Source: Acidobacteriota bacterium (GTDB taxonomy: Bacteria > Acidobacteriota > Terriglobia > Acidiferrales > UBA7541). From it: a DNA stretch of 37,431 nt. The DNA lies in contig QHYJ01000069.1 of NCBI GenBank assembly GCA_003223255.1, positions 1-37,431 on the forward strand, written 5' to 3'. The notes below the pieces were generated by a model. The model did not search any database. It saw nothing but the letters and a program-made list of their open reading frames with translations, and was not told the origin of the DNA. Below, in pieces: positions 10,157-28,262 of this stretch (positions within the stretch are counted from its first letter, which is position 1; each line of letters starts with the position of its first letter). A program made the position numbers and the translations under genes.

Positions 10157-11602
10157 ATGGACGTCTGTGTCGAAAGCGAAAGCGTAGTCTACACACCCGC
10201 TACCGAAGCCATGCTCGAGGGCATTGCCCTCGCAGAAGAAGCGGAAGAGAGCGATCGCGGTAGCACCGAAAATTCGTGCGCAGGCCACAACCCTGCCGAT
10301 TCTGCCCACGCAAAAACGCCGCAGCCTGAACCAGCCACAGCCAAAAATCCCTGGTCCGCCTGGGCCTGGCTGGGCCTCTGTAAAGCTCCGGCGCGCAAAA
10401 TCCCCAACATCGTCCACGTTGACGTGGATGCGTTCTTCGCTTCCGTCGAGCAGGTGCTGAATCCCCGGCTGCGCGGCAAGCCCGTGCTGGTGGGGCGCGG
10501 CTGCGTGGCTTCGGCCAGCTACGAGGCGAAGGCGCTCGGCGTGAAAACCGCGATGGGCTTCCGCGAAGCGCTGCGCGTTTGCCCCAAAGCTATTGTTGTC
10601 CCCGGGCAATACGAGCACTACGCCGATTTTGCCGAACGCGTGCGCCGCATCCTCGAAACCTACACGCCCGCGGTGGAAACCGCCGCGTTGGACGACTTTT
10701 ACCTCGACTTCGCCGGCACCGAACGCCTGTATCCCGATTATCGAGGGACGCTGGTGCGATTGCAGATGGAAGTTTTCAAGGAAACAGGACTAAGCGTTTC
10801 GCTTGGCGCTGCGCGCACCAAAGTCGTTGCCTCGATCGCCTCGCGGCTCGAGCGTCCACGCGGCTTCCGCATGGTCGCGCCCGGTGATGAAGAAGCTTTC
10901 CTGACGCCGCTGCCGGTCGCGAAACTCCACGGCATCGGCCACGTGCATACGAGCACGCTGGCCGAGCGCGGCATCACCACCATCGGTCAACTGCGCCGCG
11001 TGCCGAAAGCTGCTCTACAGGCGGCCTTCGGCGAAGCCATCGGCCTGCAAATCTGGGAGCGCGCCCGCGGCCTCGACGGCCGCGAGGTGCTGCTGCCTTC
11101 CACACCAAAATCCGTCTCCCGCGAAACCACCATCGAAGGCGGCACCATCGACACGGAGTTTCTTGGCGGGCTGATCGAGTATCTCAGCGAGCGCATCGGC
11201 TCGACCTTGCGCGAATACGGCAAGCAGGCGCGCACCCTGGGCCTGCGCCTCCGTTACGTCGACTATTTTTCGGCGCACCAGGCGGTGCGTCTGATCAAAC
11301 CAACCAATGACGAGCGGGAATTGCTCTCCGCTGCCAAAGAAATGTTCGGCAAACTGTTCACGCGCCGCGTAGCGGTGCGGCTCGCTGGCGTCAGCGTGAC
11401 AAATCTCGAAGCCGACCGCCGCCAAAATGATCTGTTCGATACCCGCGCGAACCGCCGCTGGTATCTGAACCGCGAAATGGACCGCGTGCGCGGCCGCTTT
11501 GGCTGGAACGCCGTCTTTTACGGCAAAGGCCTCGCCCTGCGCGAGCATTACGCCACCAAGCCCAACGGCCTGGTGCTCTCAACGCCATGCTTATCGCGGT
11601 GA
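10157..11602 (+). CDS. dinB: Y-family DNA polymerase (DinB/Pol IV-type) with N-terminal extension
   Basis: A 481-residue translesion polymerase. Residues 84-98 (NIVHVDVDAFFASVE) carry the first catalytic Asp (D89) and the steric gate F94. The second catalytic motif is ALDDFYLD (177-184), where the usual Asp-Glu pair reads Asp-Asp (D179, D180). SYEAK (121-125) replaces the common SYEAR. A helix-hairpin-helix region follows (LHGIGHVHTSTLAERGI), then the little-finger domain, and a likely beta-clamp motif QNDLF at 423-427 with a 54-residue tail. The first 80 residues are acidic and Pro-rich, unlike E. coli Pol IV, which starts at the HVDMD motif. ATG 10157 is supported by CAGGAG seven bases upstream. 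It is followed 114 bases later by dnaE2, so the pair probably acts together in damage-induced mutagenesis. An ImuB role is unlikely because both acidic motifs are kept. Confidence 0.9.
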   Translation: MDVCVESESVVYTPATEAMLEGIALAEEAEESDRGSTENSCAGHNPADSAHAKTPQPEPATAKNPWSAWAWLGLCKAPARKIPNIVHVDVDAFFASVEQVLNPRLRGKPVLVGRGCVASASYEAKALGVKTAMGFREALRVCPKAIVVPGQYEHYADFAERVRRILETYTPAVETAALDDFYLDFAGTERLYPDYRGTLVRLQMEVFKETGLSVSLGAARTKVVASIASRLERPRGFRMVAPGDEEAFLTPLPVAKLHGIGHVHTSTLAERGITTIGQLRRVPKAALQAAFGEAIGLQIWERARGLDGREVLLPSTPKSVSRETTIEGGTIDTEFLGGLIEYLSERIGSTLREYGKQARTLGLRLRYVDYFSAHQAVRLIKPTNDERELLSAAKEMFGKLFTRRVAVRLAGVSVTNLEADRRQNDLFDTRANRRWYLNREMDRVRGRFGWNAVFYGKGLALREHYATKPNGLVLSTPCLSR

Positions 11603-11716: not shown

Positions 11717-14700
11717 GTGACAAATCACGTGTTCGTCCATTTGCACTGTTACAGTCACTATTCGTTCCTGCGGGGCGTGGCGTCGCCGGAAGAGATCATC
11801 GCTGCTGCCATCGAGCAGAACATGCCCGCAGTGGCGCTGACTGACACCAACGGTATGTACGCGGCGGTGCCGTTTTACAAGAAAGCGCTGGATAAACATA
11901 TCCAGCCGATTGTCGGGGTGGCCTTGGATGTCGAATTTTGCATTTCGAGTGACGCGTTTCGAAATTCGAAAAACGAAACTCGAAATTCAGTGAGTGTACC
12001 GATCACGCTGCTGGCGATGGACATGGAGGGCTACGGCAATCTCTGCCAACTCGTTACGCTGCGGCATTTGGGCATGACGAAACTAGCCTGCCTGCCCGTC
12101 CCTGCCTGCGCAGGCAGGCGGCAAGCGGGGCCTGGCACGGTGGAACAAAACGATGCTGCCGCCGGAACCGATGGCCGCCCCGTCACCTTGCAGGAATTGG
12201 CCGAGCACAGCCGTGGCGTCATCGCTTTATGCCCGTTGCCTACACAAATGCAGGCCACAGGCACCCGTAAGGGCGCAGCGTGCTGCGCCCCTACAAAGAA
12301 ACCCTCAAACGGAGTTGGAGCAACGGATTGGATCTCGCAATTAAAGGACATCTTCACCGACCGCCTCTACATCGAAGTCCAGCACCTCTCTCCCGGCGAC
12401 GGCCCGACAGTACGCGAAGCCGAGCGCCTTGGCCGCGAACTCGGCATCCCGCTCGTTGCCACAAACAACGTCCACTTCCTCCGGCCGGAGGAACATCTTC
12501 ATCATCGCGCGGTAAACGCCATCCGCACCGGTGGACTATTGACCACCGTCGCCCCGCCGGAAATCACTGCCGACGAAGCCTGGTTCAAATCCGCCGCTGA
12601 AATGCAAAAATGCTTCCCCGATCATCCGGAATGGCTCGCAGCAACGCAAGAAATCGCCGACCGCTGCAACCTGCAACTCGCGCTCGGCAAACTCATTCTT
12701 CCCGAATGCTCGGTTCCCGACGGCGAATCTGCGTTTTCCTATCTGTGGAAGCTCAGCTTTGACGGTGCGCGCAAACGCTACACGCCGCTGCGCCCGGAAG
12801 TGCTCTCGCGCCTCACGCACGAACTTGAAGTCATCGAGCACTGGAAGCTCGCTCCGTATTTTTTGCTGGTTCACGACATCGTGCAGGAAGCTCGCCGCCG
12901 CGGTATTCCCGCGGTCGCGCGCGGCTCCGCCGCCAGTTCCATGGTGACGTATTGTCTCGGCATTTCGCGCGTCTGCCCGCTGCACTGGGGACTCCACTTC
13001 GAGCGCTTCCTGAACGAGCAGCGCGGCGATTGCCCGGACATCGATATCGATATTTGCGGCGCGCGCCGCGATGAACTGCTCGATTACGTTTACGAGCATT
13101 GGGGCGCGGAACATGTCGCCATGATTGGCAGCTTCATTACCATGCATGCTCGCCTGGCCGTGCGCGAAGTCGCAAAGGTTTTTGGCATGCCGCCGGGCGA
13201 AGTGGACCGCTTCACCAAGCGCCTGCCGCATCGCCCGGTGCGCGAAATTTTGCAGGCCATTCGCAATCTGCCGGAGTGCCGCGATCTCCCCGTCGACGAC
13301 GAACCCTGGAAAACCATCCTGCAAGTCGCCCTGCGCCTCGATGCTGCGCCACGCCACATGGGCATTCACCCCTGCGGTACGGTGATTTCCGCGCAGCCGC
13401 TGACGCGCCTGACGCCGCTCGAACGCGCCACCAAAGGCATCGTCGTCACGCAGTATGACATGAACGCCATCGAAGCGCTCGGGCTAATCAAGATGGATCT
13501 GCTGGGCCAGCGCGGCTTCACCACCATGTCGCTCGCGCTCGACAACATCGAGCGCTCTCTTCAATCTGTAGGGGCCCAGCATGCTGGGCCCGCTTTTGCA
13601 GCGTCCAACGTCGCTCCTGACGGCATGACTCCCTGTCCCAAGCCCCGCGAACTCGATTTCGACGCCATCCCCGAAAACGATTCGGCAACCTGCGGCGTCA
13701 TCGCCGCGGGCCGCACCATGGGCGTGTTCCAAATCGAATCGCCCGCCATGCGCGGCATGCTCCGGATGATGAACGCGCGCACGCTCGAAGAAATGGCCAT
13801 CGCGCTGGCAATCATCCGGCCGGGCGCCGCGGAATATGGCTCGAAAGAATTGTTCGTCAAGCGCCTCCGTGGCAAAGAAAAACTCGCCTACCCGCACGAC
13901 TTGCTCAAGCCCATTCTCAGCGACACGCTGGGCGTCTGTATTTATCAGGAGCAGGTCATGCAGATTGCGCAAACGCTCGGCAGCTTGTCGTTAGCCGAAG
14001 CCGATCTGGTGCGGCGGACTTCCGTAAAGTATTCCGGCCAGGCGGATTACGACCGTCTGCGTGAAAAATTTGACAAAGCCGCGCGCATGATGGGCCTCAC
14101 GAAACAGCAGCGCGAAGAATCCTGGCAGATGGTCGAAAAATTCGCTGGCTTCGGTTTCTGCAAAGCCCATGCGGCCACCTACGCCGACGTTGCGTACCGC
14201 ATGGCGTATCTGAAGACGCATCATCCCGCAGACTTTCTTGCCGCCATGTGCAGCGCGGGCGCAGGGTTTTATCACGTATCTGCCTATGTCGAAGAAGCTA
14301 AGCGCTGGGGCATCGTCGTGCGTTTGCCTTCGGTAAATCATTCGCGCATGGAGTACACCGCCGAAACCAGCGACAACCGCAAGCGCGCGCTTCGCGTCGG
14401 CCTGATGCAGATCAAAGGCCTGCGCATCGAGACCATCACTGCCATCGTTCGCGCGCGTGAAGAAGCCGGGCCATTCCGCTCTCTCGAAGATTTTCTGCAC
14501 CGCGTTCCTGTCGAACGCGACGAAATCGAAGCGCTTATTAAATGCGGCGCCTTCGATGAGATAGGCGACAATACAAACAGCGAAGCCGACTGCATGACGC
14601 GCCCCGAGATGCTCTGGCGCTGGAATCTCCTCCAAGCAGCAGGCAAAGGCGCGTACTCGAGCGCTTCCCGATCTTCAGGAATTGTGCTCCTCGAAAAAAC

Positions 14701-15139
14701 GGAAACTCTTTTTGCCGAACCCAGCGCGCCTGATCCCGTTGCCGCGACTCTCGCGGAAATGTCTCTGCCCGAATACACGCTGGAACAAAAACTGCGCTAC
14801 GAACGCGAAATCCTCGAAGTCTGCGTCAGCGGCCACCCGCTCGATTTCCTTCCGCGCAACGGCGAAGCCTGGAGCGACGAACTGGCTGGCCTGGTCGGCA
14901 AGCGCGTCACGCTCTGCGGCTGGGTGATCACCTACCGCCACGTCGGCACGAAAAATTACCGCAACATGATGTTCGTCACGCTCGAAGACCAGCGCGGCGT
15001 CTACGAAGTTGTGCTCTTCCCTGACGCATACGACCGCTACGGAGGTCTGGTTTTTGAGACGCGCACTATGCGCGTCACTGGACGCGTCGAGCCGGACGGC
15101 CAAATCAACGGGGAAAAGCTGGAAGCGTTGCGAAAATAG
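11717..15139 (+). CDS. dnaE2: Error-prone DNA polymerase III alpha subunit (DnaE2-like)
   Basis: A 1140-residue C-family polymerase. The catalytic aspartates are visible: PDIDIDI (D441, D443) and KMDLLG (D594), with the same spacing as in DnaE. The N-terminal PHP domain is altered: LHCYSHYS has Tyr where the second metal His usually lies, and ALTDTNG has Thr where ALTDH is usual, so phosphoesterase activity is probably lost. A helix-hairpin-helix region (about 890-950) and a C-terminal OB-fold (VTLCGWVITYRHVGTKNYRNM onward) complete the DnaE2 layout. Four short repeats are inserted in frame, three of them within the PHP region (see separate entries). The start is taken as GTG 11717; the ribosome site is weak and another GTG lies four codons on. 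It follows dinB by 114 bases and is probably co-transcribed with it. Confidence 0.92.
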   Translation: MTNHVFVHLHCYSHYSFLRGVASPEEIIAAAIEQNMPAVALTDTNGMYAAVPFYKKALDKHIQPIVGVALDVEFCISSDAFRNSKNETRNSVSVPITLLAMDMEGYGNLCQLVTLRHLGMTKLACLPVPACAGRRQAGPGTVEQNDAAAGTDGRPVTLQELAEHSRGVIALCPLPTQMQATGTRKGAACCAPTKKPSNGVGATDWISQLKDIFTDRLYIEVQHLSPGDGPTVREAERLGRELGIPLVATNNVHFLRPEEHLHHRAVNAIRTGGLLTTVAPPEITADEAWFKSAAEMQKCFPDHPEWLAATQEIADRCNLQLALGKLILPECSVPDGESAFSYLWKLSFDGARKRYTPLRPEVLSRLTHELEVIEHWKLAPYFLLVHDIVQEARRRGIPAVARGSAASSMVTYCLGISRVCPLHWGLHFERFLNEQRGDCPDIDIDICGARRDELLDYVYEHWGAEHVAMIGSFITMHARLAVREVAKVFGMPPGEVDRFTKRLPHRPVREILQAIRNLPECRDLPVDDEPWKTILQVALRLDAAPRHMGIHPCGTVISAQPLTRLTPLERATKGIVVTQYDMNAIEALGLIKMDLLGQRGFTTMSLALDNIERSLQSVGAQHAGPAFAASNVAPDGMTPCPKPRELDFDAIPENDSATCGVIAAGRTMGVFQIESPAMRGMLRMMNARTLEEMAIALAIIRPGAAEYGSKELFVKRLRGKEKLAYPHDLLKPILSDTLGVCIYQEQVMQIAQTLGSLSLAEADLVRRTSVKYSGQADYDRLREKFDKAARMMGLTKQQREESWQMVEKFAGFGFCKAHAATYADVAYRMAYLKTHHPADFLAAMCSAGAGFYHVSAYVEEAKRWGIVVRLPSVNHSRMEYTAETSDNRKRALRVGLMQIKGLRIETITAIVRAREEAGPFRSLEDFLHRVPVERDEIEALIKCGAFDEIGDNTNSEADCMTRPEMLWRWNLLQAAGKGAYSSASRSSGIVLLEKTETLFAEPSAPDPVAATLAEMSLPEYTLEQKLRYEREILEVCVSGHPLDFLPRNGEAWSDELAGLVGKRVTLCGWVITYRHVGTKNYRNMMFVTLEDQRGVYEVVLFPDAYDRYGGLVFETRTMRVTGRVEPDGQINGEKLEALRK
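11957..11988 (+). repeat. AT-rich TTCGAA repeat inserted in dnaE2
   Basis: Contains a 7+1+7 palindrome (TTTCGAA-A-TTCGAAA, 11957-11971) and a direct repeat of CGAAATTC at 11960 and 11981. It encodes an uncharged, Asn/Ser-rich stretch of about 20 residues in the PHP domain that looks foreign to the family. The base composition is AT-rich compared with the flanks, and the reading frame is kept. Confidence 0.5.
12101..12118 (+). repeat. 18-bp perfect palindrome in dnaE2
   Basis: CCTGCCTGCGCAGGCAGG equals its own reverse complement. It sits within a CCTGCC-rich stretch (12087-12125) that encodes a Cys/Pro/Ala segment in the PHP domain, with the dnaE2 frame unbroken. It looks like a dispersed short palindromic element, not part of the ancestral protein. 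Confidence 0.6.
12267..12294 (+). repeat. REP-like palindrome in dnaE2, copy 1
   Basis: GGGCGCAGC and GCTGCGCCC face each other across a 2-base GT centre, flanked by GTAA on the left and CTAC on the right. It is read as RKGAACCAPT within DnaE2. The core AGC-GT-GCT matches the palindrome at 13568-13593. Confidence 0.65.
13568..13593 (+). repeat. REP-like palindrome in dnaE2, copy 2
   Basis: GGGCCCAGC and GCTGGGCCC face each other across a 2-base AT centre, preceded by GTAG. It is read as VGAQHAGPA at about residue 618 of DnaE2, a short distance after the third catalytic Asp. Same architecture as the copy at 12267, with partly different stem bases. Confidence 0.65.
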
Positions 15140-27741: not shown

Positions 27742-28262
27742 AACTGTCTCCTTTTCCTTGCTTCTAACTTGTTCTCGTCTCCCGCTGGTTCCAACAAAGA
27801 CAGCTCCGTGGCTGCCTGCGGCGCTAGCAAATGCCCGCCGTCGTCGCGGACATCTGTTGTGATGCTAACAGTCGCCATGACGCGCTCATTGGACCAGCTT
27901 TAGTTTGGAACCGCACGTGTTGATTTGCGGAGCGCCATGCTCCGCGCAGTAAAGTATCGGGACGTACACACTTCGAGTCGAATTGGTCCTGCACTCAACC
28001 CTTCCAAATTATCACTGGCCCGCGCGCCGCGTCAACGCGTTGAATCGGTTGAATCGAAATGCCTTAAACGCTGGTTGAACGGTCATTTTTGCGCCTCGAA
28101 CGGCTTCTTCCCGGAATCGCCCAGCCAGGGATTGGAGAATCCGTTGTTTACGTCCGGCTTCTTCTCTGTGACTCTCGGTGATCTCTCGGTCAAATCTTTT
28201 CCGATTCGTCCTCCCCCCGCCTGCCTTTTCCTATCTCAATCCAAGCACATCGCTCAGAATGA
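27742..28262. other. Gene-poor stretch upstream of metK
   Basis: About 520 bases without a convincing gene. It holds the metK leader, a palindrome at 27927-27945 (GCGGAGC-GCCAT-GCTCCGC), and then low-information sequence up to the remains of a permease gene. A short plus-strand reading frame exists through 27925-28650, but its protein is dominated by Pro/Ser/Phe and is out of frame with the recognisable permease remnant, so it is not called. Confidence 0.6.
27927..27945. repeat. Short palindrome with CATGC centre
   Basis: 7-bp arms GCGGAGC and GCTCCGC surround GCCAT. It resembles, in size and GC-rich stem with an ATGCT centre, the palindromes inserted in dnaE2 at 12267 and 13568. Confidence 0.45.

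Follow-up and report, generated by a model that had tools for sequence, protein, structure and literature searches.

The window analysed here, a stretch of 37,431 nucleotides, comes from a 6.66 Mb assembly over 428 contigs (gp2-type Acidobacteria) and contains a dnaE2-like gene (11717–15139, forward strand) directly downstream of a gene for a Y-family (Pol IV-like) polymerase (10157–11602, forward strand). The carrier is a soil bacterium, and the polymerase class is one of DNA repair. The encoded protein of 1140 amino acids has PHP, DNA_pol3_alpha palm, fingers, HHH, and OB domains, and its residues D441, D443, D445, and D594, which include catalytic acids, fall in columns that are invariant in 29 aligned proteins. 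It passes the TIGR00594 polymerase superfamily model and scores under the cut-offs of both the curated error-prone model (PRK05672, 646.9 bits vs. 939) and the replicative model (PRK05673, 822.5 vs. 1002). Because neither curated cut-off is reached, we call the gene “dnaE2-like”, a name chosen in view of the second, replicative-type dnaE in related genomes and the adjoining Y-family polymerase.

Two palindromes with 9-bp stems had originally been predicted inside the open frame at 11717–15139, and both were confirmed. At site 1, the element GTAAGGGCGCAGCGTGCTGCGCCCCTAC (12267–12294) carries the tag GTAA on the forward and GTAG on the reverse strand; its stem arms (12271–12279 and 12282–12290) enclose a GT loop, and it is translated as RKGAACCAPT (R184–T193). 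The site 2 element GTAGGGGCCCAGCATGCTGGGCCCG (13568–13592, forward strand) carries the tag GTAG, has stem arms at 13572–13580 and 13583–13591 around an AT loop, and is translated as VGAQHAGPA (V618–A626). One DNA element is thus read in two different frames, from which it follows that the unit is DNA and not a peptide module; with the tag facing forward, the remaining frame runs into the TAG of the tag. With GTAG or GTAA/GTAG tags, 9-bp stems, and 2-nt loops, both elements have the tag and the shape of GTAG-type repetitive extragenic palindromes (REPs), for which Table 1 of PMC3733652 gives stems of 5–13 bp and loops of 2–20 nt. In a 51-nt context, the predicted RNA folds have energies of −19.3 (site 1) and −21.0 kcal/mol (site 2), with z-scores of −2.6 and −2.2, respectively.

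The gene holds further repeats that the original prediction, right about the two palindromes, had overlooked: an AT-rich CGAAATTCGAAA-type repeat (11957–11988, forward strand), read in frame as FRNSKNETRNS in a third expandable linker, and the palindrome CCTGCCTGCGCAGGCAGG (12101–12118), in frame in a fourth, of which a diverged counterpart occurs at the same place in the sister locus L059. The “similar element” claimed at 27927–27945, upstream of a SAM synthetase gene, did not survive inspection: it is a hairpin with a 7-bp stem and a 5-nt loop (GCGGAGC-GCCAT-GCTCCGC) and was rejected as a dnaE2-type element since it has no GTAG tag.

Set against solved DnaE structures, site 1 maps to a gap between aligned blocks in the PHP region, and site 2 to the stretch after the palm block and before the fingers block, which bears out the predicted placement of the inserts in linkers. 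An AlphaFold2 model of the protein is poor (mean pLDDT 52.7, with 575 of 1140 residues below 50). Values below 50 are found at residues 77–89, 120–152, and 177–201 and at most of 616–640, and also in much of the palm; both sites are low-confidence coil in this weak model, half of whose residues are low-confidence.

A degenerate pattern for the element gave 27 strand matches in the 6.66 Mb of its own genome against 1 for a reversed-pattern control, which amount to 21 distinct places after merging of overlaps, both dnaE2 places included. With one stem type at 21 places, the element is a dispersed family, as expected of a GTAG-type REP, and the predicted further genomic copies do exist; the opposite outcome, no other copies, can be discarded. 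A looser pattern was less clean (17 strand matches vs. 3 in its control). Manual reading placed GTAG at one end only in 15 of the 21 places, a tag that the search pattern itself favors, and in this one-end tagging the places resemble the GTAG-type REPs in the accessible part of PMC3733652. For a REP family, copies are few, although the same source counts families of 20–100 units or even less. Across the genus, the GCAGC core is present in 29 of 36 genomes and the ACGAT core in 30 of 36, with no matches in the controls. Several genomic copies (L003, L004, L007, and L012) share a CTTGGCAAC- or CTCGGCAAG-like sequence a few bases from the untagged end, and the REP element may be longer than the hairpin.

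Pooling three patterns and merging overlaps, with the control of the looser one standing at 3, gave 36 places in the own genome, of which no fewer than five are read in frame within conserved genes, namely dnaE2 (twice), TrpRS, PurL, and PrmC. This number is a floor, since a spanning frame was scanned with Pfam for 18 of the 36 places; the other 18 comprise the two known dnaE2 sites and 16 places without a class. One pooled entry (C165) has no palindrome. A match to GTAGGGGC...GCCCC at L094 (1501–1524), in a frame that encodes the reverse transcriptase and maturase domains of a group II intron, likewise lacks a palindrome and was rejected as a chance match.

The elements in TrpRS and PrmC lie between aligned blocks of solved homologues, and the one in PurL is an insertion relative to solved homologues. 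For a comparison across the genus, 30 loci each were kept for TrpRS and PurL, of which two rows for TrpRS, two for PurL site A, and five for the second PurL loop were unreadable. Among the 28 readable TrpRS rows, the site is an empty 5-residue loop in 21 and holds a REP core in two. At PurL site A, 19 of 28 readable rows have a 15-residue loop, and a REP core is seen in the window genome only. The second PurL loop ranges from 13 to 55 residues and carries a GCAGC or ACGAT core in 7 of 25 readable rows. Insertion had been taken as special to a mutator polymerase, a claim that finds no support when the same element stands in frame in these three enzymes. Other inserts were seen in the same loops: AGLKPGAT at the REP site of TrpRS in L177, and in-frame HSERSEES, SERSEES, or HSERSADS in the second PurL loop of L210, L218, and L225, peptides that resemble the opposite strand of an RSFASLRMT-type repeat known from the dnaE2 genes of L040, L041, L043, and L049.

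The dnaE2 homologues came from 30 contigs, 29 of them assigned to Acidobacteria, Acidobacteriota, Acidiferrum, or Terriglobia (many “gp2”) and one (L044) to Betaproteobacteria; the dnaE2 of the latter is 73% identical to that of the window, and L044 is probably a wrongly assigned bin. Since L054 begins past site 1 and L059 stops before site 2, the comparison at each site covers the window and 29 homologues. By manual count, 15 of 30 sequences have a forward GTAGGGGC-type element at site 1 (decayed in L035, tag altered in L051) and 6 of 30 have one at site 2 (decayed in L032), often with another stem core in the relatives. The site 1 hairpin is missing in L034, L037, L048, and L056 and replaced in L040; in L041, L043, and L049 it is followed or replaced by an RSFASLRMT-type repeat beside an extra, reverse-facing hairpin of another stem, and L052 has a possible diverged hairpin. 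Unrelated repeats fill these linkers in other relatives (RSFASLRMT-type repeats, AAGGAGGTA tandems, and ACAGGCATTCCTGCCTGT and CACGAGTCACCAGTCAC tandems). Conversely, the linker is short and repeat-free in L055 at site 1 and in six homologues (L052, L054, L055, L058, L060, and L061) at site 2. The inserted peptides, presented at the outset as foreign, are not private to the strain, as relatives carry GTAGGGGC-type elements at both sites, and the same residues in homologues, which were to speak against insertion, are found in part, at site 1 in half of the sequences. Because of the short, repeat-free linkers, we read the shared site 1 element as an old shared insertion and not as the absence of one. 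A more distant dnaE2 (L053) has four stem-9 hairpins of other repeat types, including GTAG-tagged CACAGGC stems.

The stem core at site 1 differs even between close relatives. In a FastTree phylogeny of 977 core columns, the window groups with L059 (support 0.79), and the pair is nested with L032 and L033 (support 0.99). The core is ACGAT in these three relatives and GCAGC in the window, and over 12 core bases the window differs from L059 at 9 positions and from L032 and L033 at 10. With third-position differences of only 0.29–0.32 for the same comparisons, the core underwent either a block change or unusually rapid change in the window lineage. Every one of these core differences is a transition, and the same holds for seven of the eight cores compared with the window (9/9, 10/10, 10/10, 9/9, 5/5, 1/1, and 5/5), the exception being L045 with 7/8, against a transition share of 0.47–0.61 at third positions. 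This pattern is compatible with exchange with other copies in the genome and also with compensatory change. On reading of the matches, the site 1 core shows no plain correspondence to whichever core is commoner in its genome: in the genome taken as that of L046 (G005), ACGAT matches outnumber GCAGC matches, yet site 1 of L046 is GCAGC, and replacement by the locally dominant REP type was set aside for this reason.

We consider it likely that the palindromes are GTAG-tagged, non-autonomous repeats of the REP type, inserted in frame in two flexible linkers of the DnaE2-like protein and tolerated there. Copies would land in frame in the flexible linkers of the gene, mobilized by a RAYT-like Y1 transposase that acts in trans or has since been lost; the stem core at a fixed site would be swapped through re-insertion, or through conversion or template switching among REP copies; the inserted peptides would be close to neutral. 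The genomic copies, the two reading frames, the homologues with short linkers, other cores at the same site, the three other enzymes, and a hairpin-poor replicative paralogue were all observed and speak for REP insertion. Plain neutral decay, on the other hand, would predict less persistence of the site 1 palindromes with paired changes than the alignment shows. Of the interpretation first given to the locus, the REP-like nature, the dispersal, the reading in frame, and the linker position stand, and the special tie to a mutator polymerase finds no support.

The published system closest to this one is the GTAG or CGTC REPs inside genes, with DnaE2, uvrA, and others listed as REP-tagged (Di Nocera, De Gregorio, and Rocco 2013, PMC3733652, available to us in part). 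The elements share with the GTAG REPs described there the tag, a stem of 5–13 bp, a short loop, dispersed copies, and in-frame reading in DnaE2 and other genes, the DnaE2 cases of that work being of the GTAG or CGTC type. They differ in their host, which is here an acidobacterium and there, as far as the accessible text goes, belongs to the Proteobacteria, Cyanobacteria, Chloroflexi, or PVC group, and also in their low copy number, the lack of a recognized RAYT in the own genome, and the genus-wide turnover at the same sites. The likeness to Rickettsia palindromic elements originally proposed is right in the general sense that those too, according to the same partial source, are short palindromic repeats in frame in functional genes; they are not the closest parallel, given that GTAG/CGTC REPs in DnaE2 were already published. 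R. conorii ranks top there for intragenic CGTC repeats, which are equated with RPE-4 and RPE-6, whereas the tag here is GTAG, a distinction judged on the tag and not on the RPE sequence. REP-type repeats have been listed for three Acidobacteriota genomes (RepRanger 2025, PMC12306157), and the accessible portion of its main text holds no mention of in-frame intragenic copies that we found. No paper on such REPs or inserted peptides in this genus was recognized among the matches listed from the open-licence literature. The type of event is thus already known, and what appears to be new, at least to us, is the genus-wide picture in which loops are filled repeatedly and cores exchanged at fixed genic sites.

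Among the alternatives, one that we regard as unlikely is that the hairpins are selected in the dnaE2 mRNA as RNA structures (for pausing, stability, or translation control), with the stem maintained by G–U wobble compensation. Both predicted folds are stable, and the excess of transitions in the cores over third positions is what such compensation would leave. In an alignment of the site 1 stem with 11 distinct rows (identical elements merged, four loci in one row and two in another), 89.9% of cells are paired against a shuffled mean of 82.5, 13 cells are changed on both sides against 5.7, and covariation is 0.410 against 0.263 (sd 0.036; at most 0.232 for slid partners), values that none of 500 shuffles attains. 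Two of the five measures, however, show no excess, as 192 of 500 shuffles attain the four pairs changed on both sides and 463 of 500 the nine further pair types; moreover, the element was chosen for being a palindrome, and the sequences in the alignment are related. The same cores form dispersed families in the genomes, so that exchange with these copies explains paired change equally well. The loss, replacement, or alteration of the site 1 hairpin in eight relatives argues against a selected structure, as does Rfam, which gave no match in the window between 9000 and 17000.

A second alternative, which we judge improbable, holds that the inserted peptides alter the polymerase (its fidelity or its binding of clamp or partners) and were selected, for instance for a mutator trait. 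It finds a footing in the statement of PMC3733652, in the part available, that many REP-tagged genes are replication or repair genes, for which a mutator role is speculation in that paper, and in the gathering of repeats by the DnaE2 linkers, from which the replicative paralogue is hardly affected. Perfect hairpins with stems of at least 9 bp number 37 in the 102.5 kb of 31 dnaE2 genes (30 relatives, some partial, plus the window; 20 of the 31 genes) and 4 in the 70.0 kb of replicative dnaE from 20 genus genomes (3 of the 20 genes), an overlapping but not identical genome set; with stem 8, the counts are 80 and 19. Stem-9 hairpins are lacking in 11 of the 31 dnaE2 genes, and replicative dnaE keeps to 1159–1163 residues in 19 of 20 genomes, the twentieth being untrimmed. 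We prefer this motif-free count with the replicative paralogue because motif density (42 in 101 kb of dnaE2, 4 in 187 kb of other genes, and 3 in 38.6 kb of intergenic DNA) is circular, most motifs having been chosen from dnaE2. Within a sample of about 0.43 Mb of the own genome, dnaE2 ranks first of 352 gene calls with 7 stem-8 hairpins against at most 3, and has 4 with stem 9 against at most 2 elsewhere; with stem 10 it has 1, equal to eight other gene calls of which several are N runs. This ranking rests on rough gene calls, N runs inflate other genes in it, and the window was picked for its palindromes; a de novo test of repeat-richness by shared 16-mers in the same sample was dominated by chance matches. 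Tolerance in a less constrained protein explains the hairpin richness of dnaE2 without any targeting. Peptide sequence and frame, furthermore, change from one relative or site to the next, which is at odds with a conserved function, and the inserts are missing from some homologues. That the same elements also hit a tRNA synthetase (TrpRS), a purine enzyme (PurL), and PrmC weakens the idea of a mutator adaptation as well.

It is hardly credible that the palindromes arose by chance or are old features of the coding sequence and not insertions: GC-rich coding DNA does give hairpins (0.069 per kb with stems of at least 9 bp in gene calls, an N-run-inflated figure), but it accounts for neither the dispersed copies and the tag nor the empty sites and the same-site replacement by other repeat families.

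Beyond REP insertion as such, we tentatively suggest, as a reading of rather low probability, that certain enzyme loops in the genus are standing landing pads with a REP hairpin that is renewed: copy exchange or hairpin-preserving transitions would rewrite the stem core while the genic site stays fixed, with palindrome and frame kept. If so, essential enzymes would continually draw loop sequence from selfish repeats, and coding hairpins would owe their perfection to an active process, be it transposase re-targeting, template switching, or RNA selection. The locus turns scattered reports of in-gene repeats into a comparative system within one genus, with tens of genomes, sites known to be empty, repeats of several families, and, for a control, a paralogue that is nearly clean. 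In it one can ask directly by what route selfish DNA turns into protein, whether the loops are targets of insertion or simply tolerate it, and why coding hairpins stay perfect.

As to the mobilizer, REPtrons may be missing according to the available part of PMC3733652, and Y1 nucleases have been surveyed (PMC6006769, likewise available in part). Four Y1_Tnp matches were found in the own genome, among which no RAYT was recognized: two (L029 and L030) are partial, at contig ends, and were read by match only, and two (L028 and L031) were rejected as RAYTs since, on our reading, they look to be of the IS200/IS605 type beside a TnpB-like frame. Across the genus, 29 of 36 genomes have Y1_Tnp matches, and among the proteins scanned from four relatives, those of L134, L137, and L143 pass the RAYT cut-off and that of L131 the IS200 cut-off. 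The GTAGGGGC hairpin is absent from the three RAYT loci and lies nearby in only 2 of the relatives' 29 Y1_Tnp loci (L131 and L145). No mobilizer was established for the GTAGGGGC stem family. At L143, the RAYT gene of a relative (845–2253) is situated amid 13 GTAG hairpins, nearly all of them variants of GTAGCAGCGGCTTTACGCCGCTGC, a repeat other than that of GTAGGGGC.
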